NCBI RefSeq assembly: GCF_009909615.1
Contig: NZ_WWNE01000003.1
Span: 124,001 to 188,000 of the forward strand
Source: Acidiluteibacter ferrifornacis
Lineage (GTDB): Bacteria; Bacteroidota; Bacteroidia; Flavobacteriales_E; Vicingaceae
Direction of reading: 5' to 3'
DNA: 64,000 nucleotides
Shown: positions 15,880 to 33,609 of the stretch, piece by piece
Position numbering within the stretch: position 1 is the first letter of the stretch
Layout: each line of letters starts with the position of its first letter
The notes under the pieces: model-generated
Database searches by the model: none
What the model was told of the DNA's origin: nothing
What the model saw: only the letters and a program-made list of their open reading frames with translations
Translations under genes and position numbers: made by a program

Positions 15880-16632
15880 TTATATCTTTTTTATTGCCGC
15901 TATTAGCCCCTCCTCTGTATAAGGATTCGCCATAATAGTTGCAACAGATCCATATTTCTCTAAAACTTCGTTGGTCGATGGCCCAATGACAGCCAACTTT
16001 TCATCACCTAATTCAAGCTCATATCGCTCTAAGTGCTCATAGAAATTAGTCACAGCAGATCCGCTAAAGAATGTAATCCAATCCAATCGCTCTTTCAACA
16101 CTGTCTCTATTTCTCCTTTTGAATAAATTGGAGAATAATTCTCGTAAATCGGCAAAGTAATCACTTCTTGACATTGATCTTTCAACAATTCCACATATTC
16201 ATTGTTCGCTTTGGAAGACTGAGGGATTAAGATCCGTTCGTCACCAAAAATAGGCAATTGCTTGGCTAGCATCTTTGCGGTGTATTCTATAGGAACAAAA
16301 TTACTTCTGTATCCGATTTTTTCTAGAGCTGCTTTGGTGGTTTCTCCCACCGTTGCAATTCTTAAATCAGTTAGAAAGTGGACTTTGATGTTAAATTTTT
16401 CAATGGCTTCAAAGAAATAATTGACAGTATTCACACTTGTGAAAACGATCCAATTGATATTTTCTAAATCTTGAAGTTGCTTTTGAACATGAGACTGATC
16501 TTCAATTGGCCTAATTGCAATCATCGGTAGGGAGACACATTTAGCCCCTAACGATTCCATTTGTTTACTAAACGATTTGGTCTGGTGGCTTGCTCTGGTT
16601 ATGAGTATTTTTTTATTTTGAAGATGACTCAC
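15880..16632 (-). CDS. hemD: Uroporphyrinogen-III synthase HemD
   Basis: A 250-aa two-lobed synthase that closes hydroxymethylbilane into uroporphyrinogen III. HemD sequences diverge widely; [13 protein letters not shown] at the start, [28 protein letters not shown] and the [11 protein letters not shown] end fit the family, and the position inside the hem operon decides the call. The start codon is GTG at 16632, within the last 20 bp of hemAC, so the two are translationally coupled. A second HemD-like protein lies at 36097-36843. Confidence 0.9.
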
Positions 16633-18802
16633 CGATTGCCACTTTAGTTTTCTCTTCTAACTCAGCTTTCAATCGAACTGCTAAATCACGAGCAATTTGA
16701 ATGTAATTTACAGCTGGCCCTTTTTCTTCTCCCGAAACAAGGACACTGCCGTCTTCAGTTGCAAACATACCTTCAATGGTAATTTGCTCCTCATTTACTT
16801 GTGCATAAGCAGCTATTGGATAATTACATCCACCGCCTAAAGCAATCAAGAATTCTCGCTCAGCAAATGTAGCTATTTGAGTAGGTCCATGATTAAACTT
16901 CTTTATCAAGTCCATCACAAAACCACTTTCATCACGCACTTCTATCGCTAATGCACCCTGAGCTACTGCAGGCAATATATCCTTCGCGCTGAAAATATCA
17001 TTTGCTTTGTCAATCATTCCTAATCGATTGATTCCAGCATAAGCTAAAATAATGGCATCATAATCACCCTCCATCATTTTCTTAATTCGCGTATCTAAAT
17101 TTCCTTGAATAAATTTAGTCTCAATATCTGGACGCAATTTCTTCAATTGAATTTGTCTTCTTAAGCTTCCTGTTCCAATGATTGCTCCTTGACGCAGGTC
17201 TTCAAACTTTTCACCCTTCTTTGAAATAAGGATGTCTCGGACATCAGCACGATCTGAAATAGCTGCCAATTTAAGGCCACTTATATTTTCAATTGGTAAG
17301 TCTTTAAAACTATGTACTGCTACATCCACTGTTCCGGCTACTAAAGCTCGCTGAATAGCAGTAGTAAAAGCTCCCATCACTTCAATATTCCCATCATCCC
17401 CATTCGTTCGAATCACCTTAGTAACAAACTCATAGTCTGGCTGAAATCTCTTCAGTTGTTCGATTACTTGGTGTGTTTGCGTCAAAGCTAACTTACTTCC
17501 TCTGGTACCTACAATGACTCTCCTCTTTGGAACAGTAATTTCAACATCTTCTAATCCAAAAACTCGCTTAACGGTATGAATTGGATTATCTAACTCGTGC
17601 ATATTGTGAGACAATTCATGAATCACCTCCATCGGCTTTTTGGATATTTTTCGCACCATTCGATGTGAAAACTTCTCCAACAACTCTATCTGTGAAGGAG
17701 TCAAATCACCCATCTTCGGGAGTAACCAACTGAGCTCTGACTCTTTTACCTCTTGTAATTGATGCCAATACGCCTCTAAAACAGGAGAGGCCTTTCTATT
17801 GTAGTACCAACTTGTAAACTTTTGAACTTCCTCTTCTACTATTTCAGTTGCTTTAGGTATCTCGTCATGACGTTTCAACAAACTTTCGAAAGTCATTTTT
17901 TTGATATCATCAAGGTCGTACAAAGAAACTCCTTCAAGTGCTTTAAGCCCTGAGTTAAAATTACGTGGCAACCCAAAATCAATCAACAACTTGGGCTCGC
18001 TGGCTTTAAAAGCAAATTGTGCACGTGTACACTTACTATCGGTTAATGCCGCTTCACTCAACAGGTTCACCTCTCCTTGGGTTCCTCCAATAATTATATC
18101 TACTTGCCCCACATATCGATGCAAATACTTTATATCAATGGCTTCCCCATTCCATTCCTTCGCCATTTCACTGGCTCGCTCTAGGTTATGGCTGGCGATG
18201 TAAAGCTTCTTTACTTTCGTTCGATCGAGAATTGTTGCCACCAAATTGGCCATATTCCCGGTACCAACTACTAACAACGTACTATCTTCTAATTGATAGC
18301 CGTGATGTTCAATCAGTTCAAAACCAACAGTTGCTAGTGAAGCTGAATGACGACCAATATTGGTTTCTAATCGAGTTCTTTTACCTGTATGCACTGCATG
18401 ACGAATCATCTCGTCAAGCATTGGCCCAATGGTTTTCATTTTACGCGCTAACGCTAATGCAGACCTAATTTGACCTACAATTTGGTGCTCTCCAATTGCC
18501 TGAGACTCCAATCCTGCTGCAGTAGAAAACAGATTTTTAATTGCAATTTCGGTATCTGGAAGTACTGACAAATATTGAGAAAAATTTCCAAATCGCTTTA
18601 GATAGTTTTCTAAGCCATAATAATTGTCACCGAAAGCGTAGAGCGAAAGTCGATTACAAGTGGCAATTATAAATACTTCAGAATAGATTTTACGTAAGTC
18701 TTCTAACACTTGCATGATTTGTTCATCATTCAATGCCATCTGCTCCCTAACTTCTATAGGTGCAAATCGGTGACTTAACTCTACTCCGACAATTTTATCC
18801 AT
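16613..18802 (-). CDS. hemAC: HemA-HemC fusion: glutamyl-tRNA reductase plus hydroxymethylbilane synthase
   Basis: One 729-aa frame joins two usually separate enzymes. Residues about 1-420 are glutamyl-tRNA reductase: SHRFAPIEVREQ, the catalytic Cys in IIATCNRLSLY, AIGEHQIVGQIR, the NADP-binding LVVGTGNMA and a C-terminal dimerisation helix region. Residues about 425-729 are hydroxymethylbilane synthase, starting RVIVGTRGSKLALTQ, with AVHSFKDLP, GTGSLRRQ and the dipyrromethane-cofactor Cys in GGGCNYPI. All key residues are present in both halves, so both activities are expected. The start is put at the ATG at 18802; a TTG at 18808 is the alternative. It is the first gene of the hem operon. 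Confidence 0.95.
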   Translation of the reverse strand: MDKIVGVELSHRFAPIEVREQMALNDEQIMQVLEDLRKIYSEVFIIATCNRLSLYAFGDNYYGLENYLKRFGNFSQYLSVLPDTEIAIKNLFSTAAGLESQAIGEHQIVGQIRSALALARKMKTIGPMLDEMIRHAVHTGKRTRLETNIGRHSASLATVGFELIEHHGYQLEDSTLLVVGTGNMANLVATILDRTKVKKLYIASHNLERASEMAKEWNGEAIDIKYLHRYVGQVDIIIGGTQGEVNLLSEAALTDSKCTRAQFAFKASEPKLLIDFGLPRNFNSGLKALEGVSLYDLDDIKKMTFESLLKRHDEIPKATEIVEEEVQKFTSWYYNRKASPVLEAYWHQLQEVKESELSWLLPKMGDLTPSQIELLEKFSHRMVRKISKKPMEVIHELSHNMHELDNPIHTVKRVFGLEDVEITVPKRRVIVGTRGSKLALTQTHQVIEQLKRFQPDYEFVTKVIRTNGDDGNIEVMGAFTTAIQRALVAGTVDVAVHSFKDLPIENISGLKLAAISDRADVRDILISKKGEKFEDLRQGAIIGTGSLRRQIQLKKLRPDIETKFIQGNLDTRIKKMMEGDYDAIILAYAGINRLGMIDKANDIFSAKDILPAVAQGALAIEVRDESGFVMDLIKKFNHGPTQIATFAEREFLIALGGGCNYPIAAYAQVNEEQITIEGMFATEDGSVLVSGEEKGPAVNYIQIARDLAVRLKAELEEKTKVAIGESSSK

Positions 18803-18808
18803 CTGCAA

Positions 18809-22110: not shown

Positions 22111-25074
22111 CTACACATCTTCTACTTGCAAGTCATCTAGCTTTTGTAAATATGTTACCTCTACAGTGACATAACCAAATTCTTCCACTGTTTTTCCTTC
22201 GATTAAGTAACAGCCTTTTCCTCTAAATGGATAACGAGCTGCCACCGGCGGAAAATGAACGGTATCAATCCAATCGCCATTGGCATCAACGAAAGTTCCA
22301 AACTGCATCGTTTTCCGGCTCGTAGTCCGTGTATTTTTTATAGTGACCAAGTAACCAACCATCCGAACTTTCTTTCCAACTACACCATTCAACTGATTGA
22401 CGAAAGTCAGCCCTTCAGGCATCTTCTTCACCAATTCAAAAGGAGAACACAATGGAAATCCCAAAATTAATCGCTGATCGAGAACTTCTAACAACGGATT
22501 TTGATCCAACTTAGGTAATTGAAACTCCTTTACGGCTGGCCCAAATAAATCTCGTTTAGGTTGAGATTTTTTAGCCGTTCCCAATAATTGATGCACTTCC
22601 CACAATAATGCTTGTCGTGTTTTCCCAGAAAAACGAAATGCTCCAATTCGAATCAAAATGCGCAACTGCTCCACCGAAATACTCAATCGGTTCACAAAAT
22701 CTTTTAAATCGAGGTAATCTCCATTTTCATTTCGTTCACTCACAATTTTGATGGCTACGCGCTCTTCAAAATCTGTCATATGAATAAATCCCATGTAAAT
22801 ATCCTTCTCATTGTGTAACGTAGTTAAGTAATCGCTTTTATTGACACAGGGACCATGAATAATTGCTCCTTGTCGGCGAGCTTCCTGAAAATAAGCTTCT
22901 CGCGAATAAAATCCACCAAAATTATTGATTACTCCTACAATAAACTCATGCGGAAAGTGCGCCTTCAAATATAAACTCTGATAGCTCTCCACTGCATAGG
23001 ATGCCGAATGTCCTTTAGAAAAAGCATAGCCAGCGAAACTTTCAATCTGCAACCACACTTCATTGATGGTAGTTGATGGATATCCTTTAGTTGCACAATT
23101 GGCATAAAACTGATCTTTTACTTTTTGAAATTCTTCTCTAGAGCGAAACTTTCCAGACATTCCTCGTCGAAGCATATCAGCTTCTCCAAGTGTCAAACCG
23201 GCAAATTGGTGCGCTACTTTTATCACATCTTCTTGGTACACCATTACGCCAAAAGTCTCTTTCATCAACTCCTCCAAAATAGGGTGCGTCGGTTTTTCTC
23301 GCGGCATATTATTGAATCTCAAAATGTATTCCCGCATCATCCCAGACTTAGCTACACCAGGACGAATAATAGAACTCGCCGCTACCAATCCTAAATAATG
23401 ATCTACTCTCAACTTACGAAGCAACATCCGCATGGCAGGCGACTCCACATAAAAGCAGCCCATCGTTTGCCCTTCTCTCAACAGCGCCTTCACTTTTTCA
23501 TCTTCCTTAAATCGTTTTACGTCGTGGATGTCCAACGTGATGCCATGTCGCTTTTCTACCATTTCAGCTGCATCTCGAATATGCCCAAGCCCACGCTGAC
23601 TAAGCACATCAAATTTATACAAGCCAGCATCTTCGGCTTCCAACATGGAATAGTGTGTAATCGGAAAACCTTTGGGTGGCAAAGAAGTCGCTGAGAAATA
23701 ATGAATCGGTCGTTCTGCGATTAAAATCCCCCCTGCATGCACACTTAAGTGAGATGGAAATCCATGCAAGTAGGCCGCATACCGATAAATGAGCCGCTGA
23801 ATGTCGTCCAACTTTGTAGAAGTTGACGGCTCTTCCGCAAACCGATCTATCTCATTTTTTGGCAGCCCAAATACTTTTCCCAATTCTCGAATCACTGCTC
23901 GTTGCTGAAAAGTAGAATACGTAGCTACCAACGCCGTATGCTCCAATCCATATTTCTCAAATAAATACCGCGTCACATCATTCCGATCTTTCCACGAAAA
24001 GTCAATGTCAAAATCAGGTGGATTTTCTCGAAAAGGATTAATAAATCGTTCGAAATACAAATCCAATTCTATGGGATCCACATCGGTAATCAATAAGCAA
24101 TACGCTACTATGCTGTTGGCTCCACTTCCACGCCCAACGTAGAAATAACCCTTCTCCCGAGCGTAACGAAGCATGTCCCAATTGATCAAAAAGTAAGTTG
24201 CAAACCGCTGCTCGTTAATGACCTTCAATTCCTTTTCTACTCTTTCGAAAACGGCAGCCGAAGGGTTTTCATAGCGCAACTTTAAATTGTCATAGCACAG
24301 CTTTCGTAATAACGCCGTATCTTCTTCTGCCGACTGTCCAAACAATTGCTTGTTCTCATGAATGGTGTTGCTTTTACCCGTTCCTTTATAATTGAAATGA
24401 ATGCTACAGCTGTCGACTACCTTTATCGTGTTCTCTATAATTTGTGGAAACTCAGCGAATGCTTGAAGCAAGCCCTCTTTCGATAGAAAAGTTTGTTCTA
24501 AACTTCCTTCTTCCTCTTTCGGCAATTGACTCAACAACTTATTATTGTCAATGGCTCTTAACAACCGATGCGCATTAAAATCACGTTTATTCTGAAAAGT
24601 CGCCGTTTGCAAAATCACCATTTTGTCCAGTCGACTTTTCCATTTAGAAAATGGCAAACGGGTCAAATCAGACACCTTTACGCCAATCCATTCATGATTT
24701 GCCAATTCCCAATCGTAATCCACTACAGAAAACGGGTAAACAATAATCACATTCTTCATTTTGGGAGCTCGACCATTAAACGCTTGTTGTAAATGAAGGT
24801 GCTGACTCAACAGTCGATTTAATGCTAAGAAGCCTTCATTATTCTGTGCCAATCCGACAAATTGCTGCGCGACTCCATTTCTAAAATCAATACCTACTAT
24901 CGGCTTCAAACCCTCCTTATTGGTTAATCGAACCACATTTAGGCAAGCAGATGTATTGTTAATATCCGTCACTACTACTTGTTGGTAACCCAAAGCAACA
25001 GACAGTTCCACCAATTTTTTAGGCGATAGTGTACCGTATTTAAAACTGAAATAGGTGTGGTTGTTTAGCAACAT
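22111..25074 (-). CDS. dnaE2: Error-prone DNA polymerase III alpha subunit (DnaE2-like)
   Basis: A 987-aa C-family polymerase, shorter than the replicative alpha subunit and the size of DnaE2-type enzymes. The palm motif PPDFDIDFSW (about residue 355) holds the catalytic Asp pair, and GRGSGANSIVAYCL, HAGGI, MVYQEDV, ADMLRRGMSGK and FAGYAFSKGHSASYA are typical. The N-terminal PHP domain (about 1-65) has lost canonical metal residues (TDINN in place of TDHGN), which suggests no PHP proofreading. An OB-fold region ends the protein. It starts 2 bp after the Y-family polymerase gene, so the two form one operon. It is probably a translesion polymerase used after DNA damage. The replicative dnaE would be elsewhere. 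Confidence 0.88.
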   Translation of the reverse strand: MLLNNHTYFSFKYGTLSPKKLVELSVALGYQQVVVTDINNTSACLNVVRLTNKEGLKPIVGIDFRNGVAQQFVGLAQNNEGFLALNRLLSQHLHLQQAFNGRAPKMKNVIIVYPFSVVDYDWELANHEWIGVKVSDLTRLPFSKWKSRLDKMVILQTATFQNKRDFNAHRLLRAIDNNKLLSQLPKEEEGSLEQTFLSKEGLLQAFAEFPQIIENTIKVVDSCSIHFNYKGTGKSNTIHENKQLFGQSAEEDTALLRKLCYDNLKLRYENPSAAVFERVEKELKVINEQRFATYFLINWDMLRYAREKGYFYVGRGSGANSIVAYCLLITDVDPIELDLYFERFINPFRENPPDFDIDFSWKDRNDVTRYLFEKYGLEHTALVATYSTFQQRAVIRELGKVFGLPKNEIDRFAEEPSTSTKLDDIQRLIYRYAAYLHGFPSHLSVHAGGILIAERPIHYFSATSLPPKGFPITHYSMLEAEDAGLYKFDVLSQRGLGHIRDAAEMVEKRHGITLDIHDVKRFKEDEKVKALLREGQTMGCFYVESPAMRMLLRKLRVDHYLGLVAASSIIRPGVAKSGMMREYILRFNNMPREKPTHPILEELMKETFGVMVYQEDVIKVAHQFAGLTLGEADMLRRGMSGKFRSREEFQKVKDQFYANCATKGYPSTTINEVWLQIESFAGYAFSKGHSASYAVESYQSLYLKAHFPHEFIVGVINNFGGFYSREAYFQEARRQGAIIHGPCVNKSDYLTTLHNEKDIYMGFIHMTDFEERVAIKIVSERNENGDYLDLKDFVNRLSISVEQLRILIRIGAFRFSGKTRQALLWEVHQLLGTAKKSQPKRDLFGPAVKEFQLPKLDQNPLLEVLDQRLILGFPLCSPFELVKKMPEGLTFVNQLNGVVGKKVRMVGYLVTIKNTRTTSRKTMQFGTFVDANGDWIDTVHFPPVAARYPFRGKGCYLIEGKTVEEFGYVTVEVTYLQKLDDLQVEDV

Positions 25075-25076
25075 TT

Positions 25077-26261
25077 TTACCCTTTAAAACTCGGAACATC
25101 ATACTGCTTCACTCCTAATGCTATTGCTCTCGTCAGCGAGCTATCCCCAAAACGTTTCTTCATCCGATCGATCGCTTGATACAAATTAATCTGTTCCGAG
25201 GTATCCGAAAATAGATTAATCTGATACCCTCCATTTACTAAATGACTAAAGCGCACTCCAACCAATCGGAGCAACACGCGCCGCTGATACAATTTCAAAA
25301 ACAGCTCTTTTACTATTGCAATCAATTCATCGTCGTTGGCGGTATAAGGAATTGACTTTTGAGTGGTTTGTGTATCAAAATCTGAGTAGCGAACCTTTAC
25401 CGTTACGCAAGCCGTCAACTTTTCTTTCGTTCGTAATTTATAGGCCAACTTTTCCGTCATCGCGATAAGTGTACTGTTCAGCAACGCCATATCCGTAGTA
25501 TCTGTTGTGAATGTACGTTCAGCAGAAATTGATTTTTTCTCCGAATAAGGAATCACCGGAGAGTGGTCAATCCCCTGAGCTTTCATCCATATCGAATGCC
25601 CACTTTTTCCCAATACATTTTCCAACAGTTCCACCGGCATTTGCTGTAAAGTCAGCACCCGCTCCACACCCATATTTCGTAATAAATGATAGGTTTTAGC
25701 TCCTACTTGTGGGATTTTGTTCACTGTAAGAGGAGAAAGAAAACCTTTTTCCATCCCTCTTAAAACCTGTAGCTGCCCGTTGGGTTTGGATTCATTGGTG
25801 GCAACTTTAGAAACCGTTTTATTGGATGAAAATCCAAAAGAAATCGGCAGTCCAGTTTCTCGAATGATTCGCTGCCTTAATTCTGTCGCCAATTGATAGG
25901 CACCAAAAAAACGATCCATTCCTGTTAGGTCAACATAAAATTCATCAATGGATGATTTTTCATACATCGGAACTGACTCCGCCACTACTTCGGTTACCAT
26001 TTTAGAGTAATAACTATAACGCTCAAAGTCGCCTCCTAACACAATAGCATGTGGACATAATCGCTTCGCCATTTTCATCGGCATAGCAGAATGAATCCCA
26101 TATTTCCGAGCCTCATAACTACACGAAGATACTACTCCACGGTTGCCGCTTCCACCAATCAAAAGTGGCTTATCTTTTAGCTCACTATTTTGCAACACTT
26201 CAACCGATACAAAAAAGGAATCTAAATCTAGGTGTACAATATTTCTATCTACCTCTCTCAC
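25077..26261 (-). CDS. Y-family translesion DNA polymerase (DinB/UmuC-like)
   Basis: A Y-family polymerase with catalytic carboxylates intact: HLDLDSFFVSVE near the start and SSIDEFYVDLTG at about residue 104. PISFGFSSNKTVSKVATN and the little-finger region follow, then a likely beta-clamp binding motif QINLF close to the C-terminus. The start is uncertain. No ATG precedes NIVHLDLDSFF; GTG at 26261 (394 aa) is most likely, and TTG at 26318 would add 19 residues reaching into the GTCAA repeats. It is translated ahead of the DnaE2-like gene with a 2-bp gap. In many bacteria an ImuB or DinB protein works with DnaE2 in mutagenic repair. An imuA-like gene is not present here. Confidence 0.9.
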   Translation of the reverse strand: MREVDRNIVHLDLDSFFVSVEVLQNSELKDKPLLIGGSGNRGVVSSCSYEARKYGIHSAMPMKMAKRLCPHAIVLGGDFERYSYYSKMVTEVVAESVPMYEKSSIDEFYVDLTGMDRFFGAYQLATELRQRIIRETGLPISFGFSSNKTVSKVATNESKPNGQLQVLRGMEKGFLSPLTVNKIPQVGAKTYHLLRNMGVERVLTLQQMPVELLENVLGKSGHSIWMKAQGIDHSPVIPYSEKKSISAERTFTTDTTDMALLNSTLIAMTEKLAYKLRTKEKLTACVTVKVRYSDFDTQTTQKSIPYTANDDELIAIVKELFLKLYQRRVLLRLVGVRFSHLVNGGYQINLFSDTSEQINLYQAIDRMKKRFGDSSLTRAIALGVKQYDVPSFKG

Positions 26262-26271
26262 GTACTTTTTA

Positions 26272-26302
26272 TTTGTTGCTTTAATTATTTTTGCTATTTT
26301 TG
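26272..26302 (+). promoter_or_regulatory. Strong Bacteroidota promoter of the S24 repressor gene
   Basis: TTTG at 26272-26275, 19-nt spacer, then TATTTTTG at 26295-26302, an exact match to the TTTG-N19-TAnnTTTG consensus. The initiation site would fall inside the GTCAA repeat cluster just downstream. Confidence 0.7.
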
Positions 26303-26341
26303 ACAATAATAACGTCAATATTTCGTCAATAATTTAGTCAA
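26300..26341. promoter_or_regulatory. Operator-like cluster of GTCAA repeats
   Basis: One TTGAC (26300-26304) and three GTCAA half-sites beginning at 26314, 26325 and 26337 lie between the divergent repressor and polymerase genes. The first pair forms an inverted repeat with a 9-bp spacer; the direct copies are 11 and 12 bp apart, about one helical turn. The cluster overlaps the -7 box of the repressor promoter, as an autoregulatory operator would. Binding by the S24 protein is inferred from position. Confidence 0.5.
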
Positions 26342-26371
26342 AATAATTTATCAACTCCTAATTTTTAACAC

Positions 26372-27178
26372 ATGTATTTTGGTTCAAATATTAAATTACT
26401 CAGAAAGAGAAGAAAGCGATCACAAGAAGATGTTGCACAAGCAGTAAACATTAAGAGATCATCATTAAGCGGCTATGAACTAGGCACTTCAGAACCAAAC
26501 TTCGAAACATTACTAGCGTTCTCTGAGTACTTTAAAATCAGTACTGACAAGCTGTTAAAACTCGATTTAAATCGTGTTTCAGAGATGTACATGAGTCAAT
26601 TAGAAAAAGGTTTTGACATTGATATTACTGGAAGTAAATTGCGTGTGCTAGCCACTACAGTGAATAGCGAGAATGAAGAAAATATTGAGCTCGTTCCAGT
26701 GAAAGCGAAAGCAGGGTACACCACAGGATTCTCCGATCCAGATTTCATTAAAGTACTGCCAACTTTTCAATTGCCCTTTTTAACGAAAAACAGAAAATAC
26801 AGAACCTTTCAAATCAGTGGAGACTCTATGCCACCCGTTTCAGACAAATCATGGGTAACTGGAGAATTCGTACAAAACTGGGAATTGATCAAAAACGGAT
26901 ATCCATACATCGTAGTAACACAAGACGATGGCGTCGTTTTCAAAGTGGTATACAATCAAATGCATAAAAACCAAACACTACTACTTTGCTCCACTAACCC
27001 AGAATACAAGCCTTATGAAATTCATGTAAATGAAGTAGTTGAAATGTGGAAATTCGTCAATTATATCAGTTCAGAAATGCCTGAACCTAACCTTAGCCGC
27101 GATCATTTAGGAAATAGCGTGATGGAATTACAAAAAGAACTGATAGAAATAAAAAATACGTTGAGGGATAAGCAATAA
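26372..27178 (+). CDS. LexA/CI-like S24 repressor (XRE helix-turn-helix plus self-cleaving peptidase domain)
   Basis: A 268-aa regulator. Residues 5-60 are an XRE-type helix-turn-helix (LRKRRKRSQEDVAQAVNIKRSSLSGYELG). Residues about 105-230 are an S24 peptidase domain with a candidate Ala114-Gly115 cleavage site (KAKAGY), nucleophile Ser152 (ISGDSMPP) and general-base Lys191 (VVFKVVY); spacings are close to those of LexA. The C-terminal tail is helical. Proteins of this design are cleaved when RecA filaments form on damaged DNA. Divergent placement next to two translesion polymerases points to damage-inducible control of that operon and of itself. The role is inferred from domains and context. 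Confidence 0.85.
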   Translation: MYFGSNIKLLRKRRKRSQEDVAQAVNIKRSSLSGYELGTSEPNFETLLAFSEYFKISTDKLLKLDLNRVSEMYMSQLEKGFDIDITGSKLRVLATTVNSENEENIELVPVKAKAGYTTGFSDPDFIKVLPTFQLPFLTKNRKYRTFQISGDSMPPVSDKSWVTGEFVQNWELIKNGYPYIVVTQDDGVVFKVVYNQMHKNQTLLLCSTNPEYKPYEIHVNEVVEMWKFVNYISSEMPEPNLSRDHLGNSVMELQKELIEIKNTLRDKQ

Positions 27179-27276
27179 AAAAATAGTTGTTAAAAAATAA
27201 TAATTCGGTAATTTAGAGCCGTTAAGGCAACTTAATGTGCACTAAAAACGTCTACATAGACATAACGTACGATATT

Positions 27277-30200
27277 ATGAAACAACTATTTACACTATGC
27301 TTATCAGCAATGATAAGCCTTTCCTCACTATATGCACAATCAACACACACTCATACTGGTGGTCCAAGCAACTGTATTTCATCGAATATTCCGATGGATA
27401 TATTGCAACCAGATGGAAAAATTGTAACCGTTGTTTCAAAAGGAAACATGAACCATCATTGGACAGAAACAGTAGACGGTTATACCGTGGTAACAGTAAA
27501 TGATGCCTTCCAATATGCCACTAAAGTTGGAAACGACTTAGTAGGAACAGGGATATTAGCTCACAATCCCCAAGACAGACTTCCAAGTGAATTAGCAATT
27601 GTTAATGCTATTTCAAAATCACTACAACCAGTGATTCAAAACATTAAAAATGGTCCTTTAAATTACACCCCAACATCAAACAAAACATACCCTACAACAG
27701 GAACAGTGAATGTCTTAGCTCTGCTAATTGAGTATCCAGATTTAGGTAGCACCTATTCCAAAGCAGATCTAGACAGCTTATTGACTAGTGCTAATCACCA
27801 CAATGGGGATGGAAGTTTTAAAACTTATTACGCACAATCGTCATTTGGCCAACTTACTATCAATGTAGATGTAATGGGGTGGTATATGGCACAAAATGGA
27901 CATAAATACTATTCAGACAGTGCGGGAAGTTCAAGAGCGGCAAAACTGGCTAGAGAAGCAGTAGATGCTGCCGAGGTAGCAGGAGCTAACTTTGCCAATT
28001 ACGACAATGACAACGATGGAAGAGTAGACGGAATTTTAGTAGTACATGCTGGTCCAGGTGCTGAAACCAGTATTCCAAATAGAGATCGATACATTTGGTC
28101 TCACCGTTGGGTATTGAACGGAGGAAGTAGCGTACCGGGTGGTGGATCGGTAACTTATGACGGAAAAATCATTAATGATTACATGATAAACCCGGAAACA
28201 AGAGGTACATTAACCAATCCAAGATTAGTAGGTATTGGTGTTTTTGCTCACGAATTTGGTCATAATTTAGGTTTACCAGATTTATACGATACTGACCCAA
28301 GCAATGGAGATTCAGAAGGAATAGGCAACTGGGGATTAATGGCTGGCGGTGGCTGGCTTGGTGGTGAGCATCGTCCTATTGGGTTTTGCGCATGGGCAAA
28401 AGAAGAATTGGGTTGGATTACACCAACAGTCTTAGCAAGCAATGCAACAGGAACTTTCAGCATAAACCCAGCGAGCACTACTCAAAATGACGTTTATAAA
28501 ATCACGACTTCCAACCCATCAGAGTATTATTTATTAGAAAACCGACAAAAGGTAGGACGTGATTTAGAATTACCTGGACATGGATTAGCGATTTGGCACA
28601 TTAACACTAGTCGATTTGGGAACCAAGACGAAACGAATAAATTAGTAGACCTTGAAGAAGCAGACGGACTAAACGGGTTGGACAATGAAACCAACAGAGG
28701 AGATGGCGGAGATTTATACCCAGGAACTTCTAACAATACAGACTTTAACGACTCCTCTAATCCAGATTCTAAATTACAAAACAATTCAAGCTCTGGGTTA
28801 ATCATTAGAAACATTGCTGAATCAGGAACTACAGTGACTTTTGACCTAGGGGCCGCTTCATCAGCAGCTACTTGCTCAGGATTAACAACATTAACTGCTA
28901 CCACAGGATCTTTTGATGATGGAAGTGGCTTTTTAGCCAACTATGATGACAATCAAGATTGCTCATGGTTGATTCAACCTACGGGAGTTACATCAATTAG
29001 ATTAGAGTTTTTATCGGGCTTTTTTGATACTCAAGCTCCCGCTGACTCTGTAACCGTTTACGATGGGGCAAATGCAAGTGCTCCACGCTTAGGAACGTTT
29101 AGTGGAAACACAACTCCTCCAGTTTTAAATTCATCAGGAAATAGTCTATTTATTACATTTAAAACGGATGGCACTACAAATGCAGGAGGATGGCATGCAA
29201 TGTATACAACAACATCTAATCTGCCTACATGCAGTGGGCTTACCACTTTAACTGCTCAAAACGGAACATTTAGCGATGGTAGTGGCGCAAACAATTACAC
29301 CAACAACTTGGCTTGCGAATGGCTCATTCAGCCTGCAGGAGCAACTGCTATTGATGCCAACTTTCAAGGAATATTTGGAACTCAAGCCAATACGGATGTA
29401 ATAAAAATATACAATGGAACATCAAATACAGGAACTTTATTAGGAACCTTTAGCGGATCTACTAGACCTCCCAATACCATTACAGCCAATTCTGGATCTA
29501 TGTTTGTTGAATTCATAACCGATGGAAGTGTAGATGGATTGGGTTGGACCATTCAATATTCTGCTATACTTGGACCTCCAAAAACATGTAATGGAACAAC
29601 CAGCCTCACTGGAAACACAGGTAGTTTTAATGATGGTAGTGCTCAATTTAGTCAATATAGTAATAATGTAGATTGTTCTTGGTTAATACAACCTACTAAT
29701 GGTCAAAATATACAGTTGACATTTAATCGATTCAACACAGAAAATACCTTTGATGTTGTAACCATTTACGATGGAGCAACAACGACATCGCCAGTATTGA
29801 GGACTATTTCAGGTTTCCAGACTAGCATTCCTGCTATCAATAGTACAGGAGGCACAATGTTAGTAAAATTTACAACTGATGTAAGTGGCACAAGACAAGG
29901 ATGGGCGGCTGATTACATTACTGTTGCCCCACCTACCACCTGCAGTGGACAAAGCACTCTAACTGCACCATCAGGAACCATAACCGATGGTAGCCCTGCA
30001 TCAGGAAACTACACCAATAATCTAAATTGTTCTTGGTTAATACAGCCCATAGGAGCTACTTCTGTGACAGCAACATTCACAAGACTGGCCACACAATTGG
30101 GTAACGACCTTGTATCTATCTATGACGGCACCAATAGCTCAGCTACATTACTGGGCACCTTCAGTGGCACGACTTTACCCTCTGCTGTTTCTGGAAATTC

Positions 30201-33200
30201 AGGTAGCCTTTATATTGAATTTATCTCAGATGCAAGTATCAATAATACAGGATGGTCAATTGACTACACTTCAGTCGGGGCTACAGCATTTTGTGGTGGA
30301 ACTACAACTCTAACAGCTAATTCAGGCTCATTCTCAGATGGAAGCGGAAGTAGCTCATACAACAACAACACTGATTGCTCTTGGTTAATTCAGCCTGTAA
30401 ACGGTCAAAATGTAAGATTAGATTTTGACAATTTTAAAACGCAAAATAATACTGACTTGGTTACCATTTATGATGGGACAACCACCTCAGCACAAATTCT
30501 AAATACCTTTTCAGGAAGTACATTACCAAGCACTGTAAATAGCAGTGGAAACGCGATGTTAGTTAAATTTACCACCAATGCCACAGGAACTGATGATGGT
30601 TGGGATGCAAGATATACCACATTTACACCTACTACTACGTGCAGTGGTTTAACTAATTTAACTGCTAGTTCAGGCACCTTTACAGATGGCAGTGCCGCTA
30701 CAGCCAACTATTCAAACAATTTAAATTGCTCATGGTTAATTCAACCTTCATCTGGAGCTAACACCATCACTGTCAACTTCAATCGACTGAACACCCAATT
30801 TAACGCCGACGTAGTTACTATTTATGATGGCCCAAACAATAGCTCACCAATACTTGGAACTTATAGTGGTTTTTCAACTCCACCGAGTGTAACTTCAACA
30901 GGCGGTAGTGTATATATAGAGTTCAACACCGATGCAAACTTCAACCTACAAGGATGGGAAATCTCCTATACCTCAACAACTGGAGGAGGTTCAACCTTTT
31001 GCAGTGGAACTACCAACTTAACAGCGAACTTGGGAACCTTTTCAGATGGTAGTGGTTCTCAAAACTATGGAGACAACTCAAATTGTCAATGGCTAATTCA
31101 ACCAATAAATGGACAGCCTATCGAACTAACATTTACCAACTTTGCAACTGAACAAGGATGGGATGTTGTTAGAGTATATAATGGCACAACAACAAGTGCT
31201 ACCTTACTAGGAGCTTTCTCTGGCAATACATTGCCAGGCATAATCACAAGCTCTGGTGGTGCCATGTTAGTGACTTTTACCAGTGACATTTCAGTTACTG
31301 ATGCTGGATGGGATGCTTCATATCGAACCATCGGTGGTGGATTTTGTAATGGAACAACCACTTTAACTGCTAATTCAGGAACCTTTACAGATGGTAGTGG
31401 AAACCAAAATTATGGTGACAATGCAGATTGTAACTGGTTAATACAACCTACATCAGGAGCACAACCAATCACATTAAATTTCACAGCTTTTGCTACTGAA
31501 ACCACAAATGATTTTGTAGAAGTATTTGATGGTAGTACCAATACTGCACCATCTTTGGGTGTCTTCTCTGGTAACTCCATTCCTCCATCAATAACTAGCA
31601 CTGGTAGTAGCATGTTAGTTCATTTTTCTTCAGACAATAACAACATTTCTGGCACAGGATGGAGTGCAAATTATACCACGCCCATTCCAGGTGGAGTTGT
31701 AATGAATCCAGATACTGTATTTTTAACCGCAAATGCAGGTGCAAATGGATCATTTAATATAGTTACGAGTAGTAGCTGGACCATTACCGATAATGCTGCT
31801 TGGCTAGTAGTGGCCAATGTAAACGGAACAGGAAATTTATCCTCAAATGTATTGGCGCTAAGCTCTAATACAGGAGCAACAAGAATAGGAAAAGTATTAT
31901 GTACTGCCACCTCAGGCGCACATGACTCATTAATTGTAGTGCAAGCAGGAGGTACTGCCTCTACTTTATCAGTTAGCCCTAAAAATATTACATTAAATTC
32001 CCCAGCAAATAGCAATTCACCAGCAAATGTAACGTCTAATACAGCTTGGTTGGCAACAACTTCTGCAAGTTGGCTAACAGTATCTCCAAATTTTGGAACA
32101 GGTAATGGATCTGTAACCATAGAAGCCAACTCCGCCAACTCAGGTTCTGCTAGAAACGGAATTGTTGTATTTACCGACATTACTAACACTTTATTTGACA
32201 CAGTATTCGTCACTCAATCAGGGTCAGGACCCTATATAGATTTTGCTGCAGGCCCCATATTCTTAGCATCAGCATCAGGAAGTACCAATTCTGTTTCATT
32301 ATCAAGTAATGTCAACTGGACAATTACAAATACAGCAACATGGCTAAGTGTATCCCCGTTAAGTGGCAGCAACGTGGCATCAATCTCCCTTAACTCTCTT
32401 TCAGCCAATACTTCTGGCGCTCCCAGAAGTACATGGATTTATGCGACTGACGGAACATTAATAGACTCAGTTGAAATTATTCAAAGAGATGGTTCAGTTC
32501 CAAACTTTAATTTAACATTATCTAAAAGCATAATAAACTTAGCACCACCAAGTGGAAGCAATGACTTTTTTGATGTCACTTCCAATGTTAGTTGGAGCTT
32601 CAGTGGTGTTCCAGCATGGTTAACCATTAACCCTACTACAGGTTCGAACAATGCTACAATTTCCGTAGTAGCCAACTCAGTAAACAATACTGGAAGCATG
32701 AGGACGGCGACGATAACTGCAAGCACTACTACACCCGGTGTAGCACCTAAAGATATCGTCATCAATCAAATTGATGGAAGCTCACCATATCTAAGTGCTT
32801 CAGTAGACACCATTGTATTAGGTCAATTACAAGGAAGCACAAATGCATTTGATGTATTAGCCAATGTAAGTTGGACTATACAAGAAAACATAACGTGGCT
32901 TTTAATGGGGCCTAAAACAGGAACAAATGATGCGCGAATTACAATTCAAGCAGGAAGTGCCAACAATACGACTTCAGCCCGCTCCGGAAACTTAACCATA
33001 AGTTCTGCAGGATTACCTAATAAAATCGTTCATGTAGTTCAGTTAGGAACTCTTGCTACTTTAGATGTAAGTAAAACTCTAGTTAGACTGGCAGGAGACT
33101 CAGCAAGTATGAATACTTTTAGTGTATTGGGCAACAGTACCAATTGGACCATTACTGGAACATCTAATTGGTTAGAGATTTCACCGAATAAAGGTTCTTA

Positions 33201-33609
33201 TACTACTCAAATTAGTTTAAAAGCCAAAACGGCAAATCCTGGTGCTCCACGTTCGGACACACTATATGTTACAGCTTCAGGATCAACAACCAAGACTGTT
33301 ATAGTAACTCAAGACAGCCTTCAAACTATTGGCATAATGGAAAGCAGTATTGCTGAAGGAATGAAAGTATATCCGAACCCAACACTAGGTTTAGTAAACA
33401 TTGAGGCGAATAGCAACAGGAATATTAATGATTACAACGTAAGAGTGACCAATATAATGGGGGCTATGGTTAATCCTAACCTTCAAACACTTTCCTCCAA
33501 TAAGATTAGTATAGACCTAACGGGAATGGTAAGCGGAATTTACTTTGTAATTATTGAAAATGGTAAAGACAGAGTAGTTAAACGAGTTTCTCTACTGGAA
33601 TCGTTTTAA
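27277..33609 (+). CDS. Giant secreted M6-family metalloprotease with 8 CUB and 6 BACON-like domains
   Basis: A 2,110-aa protein. The start at 27277 gives the signal peptide MKQLFTLCLSAMISLSSLYAQ. An immune-inhibitor-A-like M6 peptidase domain follows, with the zinc motif FAHEFGHNLGLPDLYD at about residue 324 and Ca-like DNDNDGRVDG upstream. Eight CUB domains begin near residue 533, each about 117 aa with C(S/N/G)G, FSDGS-like, CSWLIQP and VTIYDG motifs. Six BACON-like domains follow (W(T/S)I ... WLxVSPxxGS ... VTQ). The last 80 residues are a type A T9SS sorting domain (VYPNPTLGLVNIEA). It should be exported by the type IX system as a surface or released protease with many binding modules. 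Host or prey protein, mucin or polysaccharide binding are possible, but the substrate is unknown. Confidence 0.88.
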   Translation: MKQLFTLCLSAMISLSSLYAQSTHTHTGGPSNCISSNIPMDILQPDGKIVTVVSKGNMNHHWTETVDGYTVVTVNDAFQYATKVGNDLVGTGILAHNPQDRLPSELAIVNAISKSLQPVIQNIKNGPLNYTPTSNKTYPTTGTVNVLALLIEYPDLGSTYSKADLDSLLTSANHHNGDGSFKTYYAQSSFGQLTINVDVMGWYMAQNGHKYYSDSAGSSRAAKLAREAVDAAEVAGANFANYDNDNDGRVDGILVVHAGPGAETSIPNRDRYIWSHRWVLNGGSSVPGGGSVTYDGKIINDYMINPETRGTLTNPRLVGIGVFAHEFGHNLGLPDLYDTDPSNGDSEGIGNWGLMAGGGWLGGEHRPIGFCAWAKEELGWITPTVLASNATGTFSINPASTTQNDVYKITTSNPSEYYLLENRQKVGRDLELPGHGLAIWHINTSRFGNQDETNKLVDLEEADGLNGLDNETNRGDGGDLYPGTSNNTDFNDSSNPDSKLQNNSSSGLIIRNIAESGTTVTFDLGAASSAATCSGLTTLTATTGSFDDGSGFLANYDDNQDCSWLIQPTGVTSIRLEFLSGFFDTQAPADSVTVYDGANASAPRLGTFSGNTTPPVLNSSGNSLFITFKTDGTTNAGGWHAMYTTTSNLPTCSGLTTLTAQNGTFSDGSGANNYTNNLACEWLIQPAGATAIDANFQGIFGTQANTDVIKIYNGTSNTGTLLGTFSGSTRPPNTITANSGSMFVEFITDGSVDGLGWTIQYSAILGPPKTCNGTTSLTGNTGSFNDGSAQFSQYSNNVDCSWLIQPTNGQNIQLTFNRFNTENTFDVVTIYDGATTTSPVLRTISGFQTSIPAINSTGGTMLVKFTTDVSGTRQGWAADYITVAPPTTCSGQSTLTAPSGTITDGSPASGNYTNNLNCSWLIQPIGATSVTATFTRLATQLGNDLVSIYDGTNSSATLLGTFSGTTLPSAVSGNSGSLYIEFISDASINNTGWSIDYTSVGATAFCGGTTTLTANSGSFSDGSGSSSYNNNTDCSWLIQPVNGQNVRLDFDNFKTQNNTDLVTIYDGTTTSAQILNTFSGSTLPSTVNSSGNAMLVKFTTNATGTDDGWDARYTTFTPTTTCSGLTNLTASSGTFTDGSAATANYSNNLNCSWLIQPSSGANTITVNFNRLNTQFNADVVTIYDGPNNSSPILGTYSGFSTPPSVTSTGGSVYIEFNTDANFNLQGWEISYTSTTGGGSTFCSGTTNLTANLGTFSDGSGSQNYGDNSNCQWLIQPINGQPIELTFTNFATEQGWDVVRVYNGTTTSATLLGAFSGNTLPGIITSSGGAMLVTFTSDISVTDAGWDASYRTIGGGFCNGTTTLTANSGTFTDGSGNQNYGDNADCNWLIQPTSGAQPITLNFTAFATETTNDFVEVFDGSTNTAPSLGVFSGNSIPPSITSTGSSMLVHFSSDNNNISGTGWSANYTTPIPGGVVMNPDTVFLTANAGANGSFNIVTSSSWTITDNAAWLVVANVNGTGNLSSNVLALSSNTGATRIGKVLCTATSGAHDSLIVVQAGGTASTLSVSPKNITLNSPANSNSPANVTSNTAWLATTSASWLTVSPNFGTGNGSVTIEANSANSGSARNGIVVFTDITNTLFDTVFVTQSGSGPYIDFAAGPIFLASASGSTNSVSLSSNVNWTITNTATWLSVSPLSGSNVASISLNSLSANTSGAPRSTWIYATDGTLIDSVEIIQRDGSVPNFNLTLSKSIINLAPPSGSNDFFDVTSNVSWSFSGVPAWLTINPTTGSNNATISVVANSVNNTGSMRTATITASTTTPGVAPKDIVINQIDGSSPYLSASVDTIVLGQLQGSTNAFDVLANVSWTIQENITWLLMGPKTGTNDARITIQAGSANNTTSARSGNLTISSAGLPNKIVHVVQLGTLATLDVSKTLVRLAGDSASMNTFSVLGNSTNWTITGTSNWLEISPNKGSYTTQISLKAKTANPGAPRSDTLYVTASGSTTKTVIVTQDSLQTIGIMESSIAEGMKVYPNPTLGLVNIEANSNRNINDYNVRVTNIMGAMVNPNLQTLSSNKISIDLTGMVSGIYFVIIENGKDRVVKRVSLLESF
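28873..31680 (+). repeat. Eight tandem CUB-domain coding repeats
   Basis: The repeats start at the first Cys codon at about 28873, 29230, 29587, 29941, 30292, 30640, 31000 and 31345, giving periods of 345-360 bp. Each unit keeps a Cys pair about 35 residues apart and the motifs SWLIQP and YDG. The DNA copies have diverged, so it is an old domain array, not a recent tandem duplication. Confidence 0.85.
31700..33321 (+). repeat. Six tandem BACON-like domain coding repeats
   Basis: Six units of about 85-92 codons share a W(T/S)I strand, an (A/T/N)(A/S)WL core, a GSxxxxISL turn and a final VTQ or VQxG strand. BACON domains are common in Bacteroidota surface proteins and are thought to bind carbohydrate or mucin or act as spacers. 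Confidence 0.75.

Follow-up and report, generated by a model that had tools for sequence, protein, structure and literature searches.

A gene for a repressor of the self-cleaving S24 type lying back to back with the genes of two DNA polymerases raises the question whether the repressor is a switch for its neighbours or a LexA with wider duties. We examined such a locus in a 64,000-nucleotide stretch of Acidiluteibacter ferrifornacis (Vicingaceae; contig NZ_WWNE01000003.1, positions 124,001 to 188,000, forward strand), hereafter the window; its genome (G000) has 3.5 Mb in 22 contigs and is 99.9% complete. The helix-turn-helix (HTH)-S24 repressor, here called group A, is encoded on the plus strand at 26372-27178 (open reading frame, ORF, of 268 amino acids), and opposite to it, on the minus strand, lie a Pol IV-like Y-family polymerase gene (25077-26261) and a gene for a second DNA polymerase III alpha subunit of the DnaE2 type of Bacteroidetes (22111-25074, ORF of 987 amino acids). 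The original prediction, made from the letters of the window, had described this arrangement as a locally controlled mutagenesis module; the coordinates and Pfam domains bear out the arrangement. From comparative sequence analysis we consider it likely that these genes form the centre of a small SOS system built around a non-canonical Bacteroidetes LexA. Rather than a local switch, the repressor is probably a LexA whose targets are its own gene, the mutagenic polymerases and recA. Both the repressor family and the polymerase pair have been described before; what we add is the operator variant and its reach to recA.

Paired dyads in the shared promoter region

At its full extent the Y-polymerase ORF spans 25077-26318 (minus strand, 413 amino acids from a TTG) and ends 2 bases from the dnaE-like gene, which confirms the predicted operon with a 2-bp gap. 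The GTG at 26261 is the more likely start than the TTG at 26318, because the stretch between them overlaps the operator and the match of a relative of the same genus (L005) begins after it; this would make the intergenic region 26262-26371. Two 15-bp sites of the GAC-N9-GTC type lie there 23 bp apart. Predicted operator O1 (GACAATAATAACGTC, 26302-26316), a GAC-N9-GTC dyad, is the top matrix site for both the repressor and the polymerase genes (20.8 bits, O1 itself being in the training set), and predicted operator O2 (GTCAATAATTTAGTC, 26325-26339), a degenerate dyad, is the second-best site (10.3 bits), its centre exactly 23 bp from that of O1 as in relatives. O1 is the sole match to GACNNWWWWWNNGTC in the window, where 0.59 are expected by chance; since O1 alone is not above chance in 64 kb, the support for the operator comes from relatives. 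The tandem O1/O2 pattern, written after the site was seen, has one match in the window against a chance mean of 0.02.

In the relatives the second-best site within 40 bp was found 22-23 bp from the best one in all 13 group-A repressor promoters and in all 11 untruncated polymerase promoters; a twelfth polymerase promoter (L059) is cut and stands outside the 11, and the three repressor-polymerase pairs of the window's genus share one region each, counted in both sets. Three polymerase loci of genomes without group A (L057, L060 and L077, of G037 and G014), at which no GAC-N9-GTC site was seen, had been dropped before these counts. In the untruncated promoters the best sites score 15-22 bits and the second sites 0.2-16.5 bits. 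Neither of the published operators GGA-N5-TCC and CTAA-N5-TTAG was seen on reading the window sequence or in front of the repressor genes of its genus (L163, L164). A direct-repeat operator of TTGAC repeats, our first impression from the window alone, was rejected, as relatives show a 15-bp dyad repeated at 22-23 bp. As judged by sequence, the repressor promoter and the SOS genes carry one and the same dyad.

The probable repressor promoter, TTTG-N19-TATTTTTG (26272-26302, plus strand), was read from the sequence against the consensus, and its -7 element was located in the matrix analysis of promoters. It has the form TTTG-N19-TAnnTTTG, which we take to be a Bacteroidetes promoter of the -33/-7 type, and its end overlaps the start of O1 by one base. 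A scan of the region for sigma-70-type promoters gave one match elsewhere, no more than shuffled sequences gave, and an Rfam scan gave nothing useful.

The same site type precedes bcp and recA

In four genomes, belonging to three genera, a strict-pattern search brought up a site between the divergent genes bcp and nth. We then looked for bcp in 16 genomes by protein homology, and 14 gave a match. In the window genome (L158, on C22) bcp, again divergent from nth, is directly followed by recA, and the site GACGAAAAAATCGTC starts 32 bp before bcp. A matrix built from 23 distinct sites of repressor and polymerase promoters only, with the bcp-recA sites held out, scored all 12 bcp-recA promoters at 13.5-22.0, a range that none of 205 control upstreams reached (maximum 10.3; 40 of 245 controls had been left out as they hold known sites). 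Eight of these promoters had been found by protein homology and four by the pattern search, and in each of the 12 recA comes directly after bcp on the same strand with a gap of 4-32 bp. The bcp loci left out of the counts are L159 (no site), L160 (partial) and L161-L162 (paralogs without recA).

A group-A repressor was detected in 11 of the 12 site-bearing genomes, all except G032, and G014 (L159), which has no group A, has bcp-recA and lacks the site. As a negative control we used the 32 family genomes without a group-A hit, in 29 of which recA was found; the bcp upstream region could be evaluated in 24 of these and not in five. The site occurs in one of the 24 (G036), and the other 23 score 6.5 or less. 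In 19 of 27 more distant relatives the pattern GAYnA-N5-TnRTC precedes bcp or recA, against 11 of 292 control upstreams (30 of 80 named loci were chosen and recA was found in 27), and the repressor promoters drift similarly, for example to GACTAATTATTAATC in Crocinitomix catalasitica. Sequence comparison thus shows the genes, their catalytic residues (described below), the conservation of the sites, and the site at recA together with its held-out and negative controls. As a side observation, bcp is a peroxiredoxin gene, and the bcp-recA operon may link oxidative and DNA-damage responses.

These data bear directly on the view that the repressor is a purely local switch over itself and the adjacent polymerases, as reported for UmuDAb and some HdiR, while another LexA runs recA. 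That view would fit the rarity of the strict operator, which genome-wide is no more frequent than in the reversed control in 10 of 11 genomes (G038: 4 versus 1), and the CTAA-type LexA paralog that the genome carries. Yet the bcp-recA site is present in 11 of 11 group-A genomes in which bcp was found, the window genome included, and stood up to both controls, whereas a tandem CTAA search for the paralog's regulon hit nothing besides the promoter of the paralog, and this in 2 of 10 genomes, single CTAA sites being too many to judge (105 in the window genome versus 163 for its reversed control, hence uninformative). We therefore consider the local switch unlikely, and the words "locally controlled" of the original prediction too narrow. 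Its further suggestion of a module standing in for a general LexA regulon holds in so far as recA, the repressor and the polymerases are predicted targets; on the other side, only those three were found and a second LexA-like paralog is present.

The strict pattern gave 42 match rows in 11 genomes, some of them one palindrome on two strands, and apart from the sites at the repressor, the polymerases and bcp, the matches examined lie mostly inside ORFs. A match recurring in the g10 genomes (L118, L139, L140, L145) was considered as a target and rejected; it lies inside an ORF of 249-252 amino acids and was taken as coding conservation. The strict pattern missed the bcp-recA site of the window genome itself, and therefore the regulon is not fully mapped.

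Several observations weigh against a LexA-like role of the group-A repressor over all three targets. Many second sites are weak, with matrix scores from 0.2, and the bcp-recA promoters have a single strong site, which in one case (L157) is GAT- rather than GAC-armed. G032 (84% complete) and G036 (66% complete) have the bcp site and no detected group-A gene, G003 and G040 have the repressor and the recA site and no such polymerase pair, and in 8 of the 27 distant relatives the pattern used found no site. No further conserved target was found with the strict pattern in the 11 genomes, a pattern that missed a known site. Finally, a LexA-like paralog, group B, accompanies group A in 12 of 13 genomes, so that the binder of the GAC sites cannot be told from presence or absence alone.

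The repressor and its paralogs

The repressor matches the Pfam families HTH_3 (1.2e-14) and Peptidase_S24 (6e-7), combining a CI-type HTH (PF01381; residues 3-65, of the P22 c2/lambda CI type) with an S24 self-cleavage domain (PF00717). The winged-helix N-domain of LexA (PF01726) is not among its Pfam matches at E 0.001, so it is not a canonical LexA. The predicted cleavage residues were confirmed by script as Ala114-Gly115 in VKAKAGY, Ser152 in GDSMPP and Lys191 in VVFKVV, and they are invariant in 17 of 17 sequences (groups A, B, C and L023) and in 32 of 32 aligned sequences, the window repressor being one row of both alignments. A structure model of modest quality (mean predicted local distance difference test score 66.8, predicted template modelling score 0.41, residues 84-135 low) matches the N-domain of P22 c2 and the C-domain of LexA. 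The closest named relatives' repressors are those of the Vicingaceae bacteria AH-660-G13 (98%) and M30B7 (97%).

The original prediction had advised a check for another lexA, and one of LexA-like kind exists. Two genes of the window genome match the S24 family over the Pfam cut-off, the group-A gene and a paralog of group B at C16:507052-507825 (L041, L002), whose promoter carries three CTAA-N5-TTAG sites and which is divergent from a gene of 88 amino acids weakly like DUF1883 (below the Pfam cut-off). In a tree of 74 repressors groups A, B and C separate with supports of 98, 98 and 100. When 29 homologs from a phylum-wide sample were added, CTAA-bearing homologs of other families fell on the B side (87) and A stood apart (92); 19 of the 103 rows, mostly close relatives of kept ones, were left out of this second tree, and both are quick trees with several long branches.

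The paralog could itself be the protein that binds the GAC sites in place of the neighbouring repressor, a reading in keeping with its presence in nearly every group-A genome and also in G032, which has the sites and no detected A gene. But B promoters carry CTAA-N5-TTAG and A promoters GAC-N9-GTC, the presumed recognition helices differ (IKRSSLSGYE in A, INRPKIGSYE in B), the two groups form separate clades with the CTAA-bearing homologs of other families joining B, and the sites of the A gene and of recA drift alike in Crocinitomicaceae. Binding of the GAC sites by group B is thus quite improbable, and group A is the likely binder.

Group C has a motif of its own, CTAC-N5-GTAG, which is present in 7 of 14 group-C promoters, most of the others having one-arm variants. 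Among the family genomes without a group-A hit, nine of the 25 with an evaluable recA upstream have this motif immediately before recA (L275, L276, L277, L279, L280, L286, L287, L288 and L298). Tiling of all 29 loci on both strands gave the motif in 18 of 1722 tiles of 120 bp, the number to be expected from the nine recA sites if each is seen on both strands. A group-C repressor is present in eight of the nine genomes with CTAC at recA, and none was found in G018 (71% complete). Of the 16 recA upstreams lacking CTAC, L274 has the A motif at bcp, in L284 recA is preceded by a CTAA site, and in 14 neither pattern accounts for recA. These sites suggest that the regulator of recA is A in some genera and C in others. 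Whether recA control has passed between LexA-like paralogs within Vicingaceae, with group A then making up a third class among the operators of Bacteroidetes LexA, we regard as evenly balanced; if true, nature would here have recorded the handover of a LexA regulon, with a third paralog, of the CTAA type, retained.

The polymerase pair

The Y-polymerase matches the Pfam families IMS (4.8e-47) and IMS_C, and both Pol IV structures (1.4e-68) and Pol IV models match it. Its active-site motifs LDLDSFF and SSIDE, read from the sequence, are kept, and it is therefore no ImuB; it also carries a clamp-type motif, QINLF. A RecA-NT-like stretch at its C-terminus is in register but weak, its score being reached by 80 of 2000 shuffles. 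The dnaE-like ORF has the Pfam domains PHP, DNA_pol3_alpha (9.9e-67), finger and HHH_6 and keeps the catalytic PDFDIDF when aligned to solved alpha subunits. The label "DnaE2-like" is apt in that this is a second alpha subunit, about 31-33% identical to the main DnaE of the genome (on C18); as to the error-prone class, the NCBIfam model PRK05672 scores 482.7 (cut-off 939) and is outscored by the general DnaE model PRK05673 (554.9, cut-off 1002), both below their cut-offs. Another Pol IV-like gene lies on C19.

No third gene lies between or before the two polymerases, and none was seen in the relatives' stretches, for which ORF starts were viewed; the whole genome was not searched for ImuA. The operon thus pairs a Y-polymerase with active-site motifs and a second DnaE, with no ImuA or ImuB-C, as PolY2 + DnaE2 does, PolY2 being compared by description only. 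The predicted cassette without imuA under a LexA-like self-cleaving repressor is upheld, and both of its parts are of already described kinds (PMC8565304, PMC6511836).

Proposed mode of action

We propose that the repressor, as a dimer, would bind the paired 15-bp sites of the GAC-N9-GTC type between the divergent genes and keep both its own gene and the Y-polymerase/DnaE operon off, while the same site type upstream of bcp-recA would place recA under the repressor as well, closing the loop. DNA damage would lead to RecA filaments, the repressor would then cut itself at Ala114-Gly115 by means of Ser152 and Lys191, and cleavage would release recA, more repressor and the two-polymerase translesion pair, which may work without ImuA, perhaps with RecA in its place. 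For the repression of both divergent units from common operators this proposal draws on the sequence conservation seen here; operator binding by the repressor, RecA-stimulated cleavage, induction by damage and mutagenesis are inferred from published relatives.

The repressor might instead answer another signal, such as oxidative stress, with a self-cleavage that RecA does not drive; that its recA target is an operon headed by a peroxiredoxin gene would be in line with this. All the self-cleavage residues are kept, however, the other targets are SOS core genes, and characterised relatives respond to mitomycin C according to the text of PMC8565304, so that we hold a different signal to be very unlikely and retain RecA-driven release as the proposed mode.

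Distribution and gene neighbourhood

Of the 46 family genomes, 13, among them that of the window, have a group-A ortholog (74-98% identity); a search at order level yielded the same 46 genomes. Repressor and polymerase genes stand back to back in all three genomes of the window's genus, and in other genera the repressor lies 6-10 kb away (G013, G029, G030, G038) or elsewhere, each gene keeping its own site pair. The survey of gene order advised by the original prediction showed that the arrangement recurs: in a phylum-wide sample of 29 repressor relatives, 11 have a Y-polymerase anywhere in the fetched stretch and 6 lie within 150 bp of a divergent one. Among 80 named group-A-like loci, 12 of which (L163-L174) are not independent of the family genomes, four have a polymerase within 500 bp, a number of loci being cut by contig ends. 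In G014 (L023/L090), of another genus, the same repressor-polymerase-dnaE order was observed with a repressor of 38% identity and, between the genes, a longer palindromic stretch around GTTTAA and no GAC site.

Separated group-A repressors are often found beside an SLC12-type permease and a PIF1-like helicase. That the locus is what remains of a prophage, a phage CI repressor with captured polymerases next to it, is barely credible: among solved structures the N-domain is nearest to P22 c2, but these neighbours recur in several genera and none of the 86 matching phage records covers 80% of the repressor.

Directly behind the repressor the window encodes (27235-33609, plus strand) a secreted protein of 2124 amino acids with an M6 peptidase, eight CUB stretches, BACON domains and a type IX secretion tail, and large ORFs with signal-like starts also lie behind the repressor in L084, L085, L086 and L089. 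Elsewhere in the window (16613-18808, minus strand) one ORF of 731 amino acids fuses glutamyl-tRNA reductase and porphobilinogen deaminase domains.

Comparison with known systems

Bacteroidetes were thought to be without an SOS response until a paper of 2021 described a non-canonical LexA with two main operator types (PMC8565304, Sanchez-Osuna et al. 2021). According to its text, these relatives bind their operators and mitomycin C induces their genes, cleavage being inferred from conserved residues; the operators given are GGA-N5-TCC, CTAA-N5-TTAG and TTAC-N5-GTAA, and an Elizabethkingia regulator is reported opposite an error-prone polymerase. As far as that text describes the family, the window repressor resembles it in the CI-type HTH with S24 domain, the Ala-Gly, Ser and Lys residues, an extra C-terminal helix and the presence of paralogs, as well as in the control of dinB(-dnaE), of recA in several species, and in N5-spaced dyads. 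It differs from the operators given there by GACRA-N5-TYGTC in Vicingaceae or about GATTA-N5-TMRTC in Crocinitomicaceae, and from the published family also by paired sites 22-23 bp apart and by a clade separate from the CTAA-bearing homologs. With this different dyad at the repressor it is, as judged by the operator, a member of neither published cluster.

In the literature searched we found neither this GAC operator class, nor its recA site, nor these families: the text of PMC8565304 has 0 hits for Fluviicola, Owenweeksia, Crocinitom, Vicinga and Cryomorphaceae, though its supplements may hold related motifs, and a Francisella paper (PMC13148647) cites the Bacteroidetes LexA work only in general terms in the part seen. 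The operator group spans Vicingaceae and Crocinitomicaceae and gives a testable regulon of repressor, recA and a two-polymerase mutasome without ImuA, and the related genera with a seemingly different recA regulator make the model of LexA turnover by paralogs, as set out in the text of PMC8565304, directly testable.

The polymerase operon is closest to the Bacteroidetes PolY2 + DnaE2 pair, described in the text of Timinskas & Venclovas 2019 (PMC6511836) as two apparently active polymerases without ImuA or ImuB-C, with RecA suggested in the place of ImuA. Both have an active-looking Y-polymerase with a RecA-NT-like C-terminus and a second DnaE; from that text no clear difference appears, and the window operon faces its repressor. 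With the imuA-imuB-dnaE2 cassette it shares LexA-type control of a Y-family protein and a second DnaE, whereas it has no imuA and its Y-polymerase keeps the active-site motifs. HdiR of Streptococcaceae and UmuDAb of Acinetobacter, which the text of PMC8565304 presents as S24 repressors of error-prone polymerases outside canonical LexA, belong to different S24 repressor lineages, and HdiR of S. thermophilus is reported there to control cinA-recA too.

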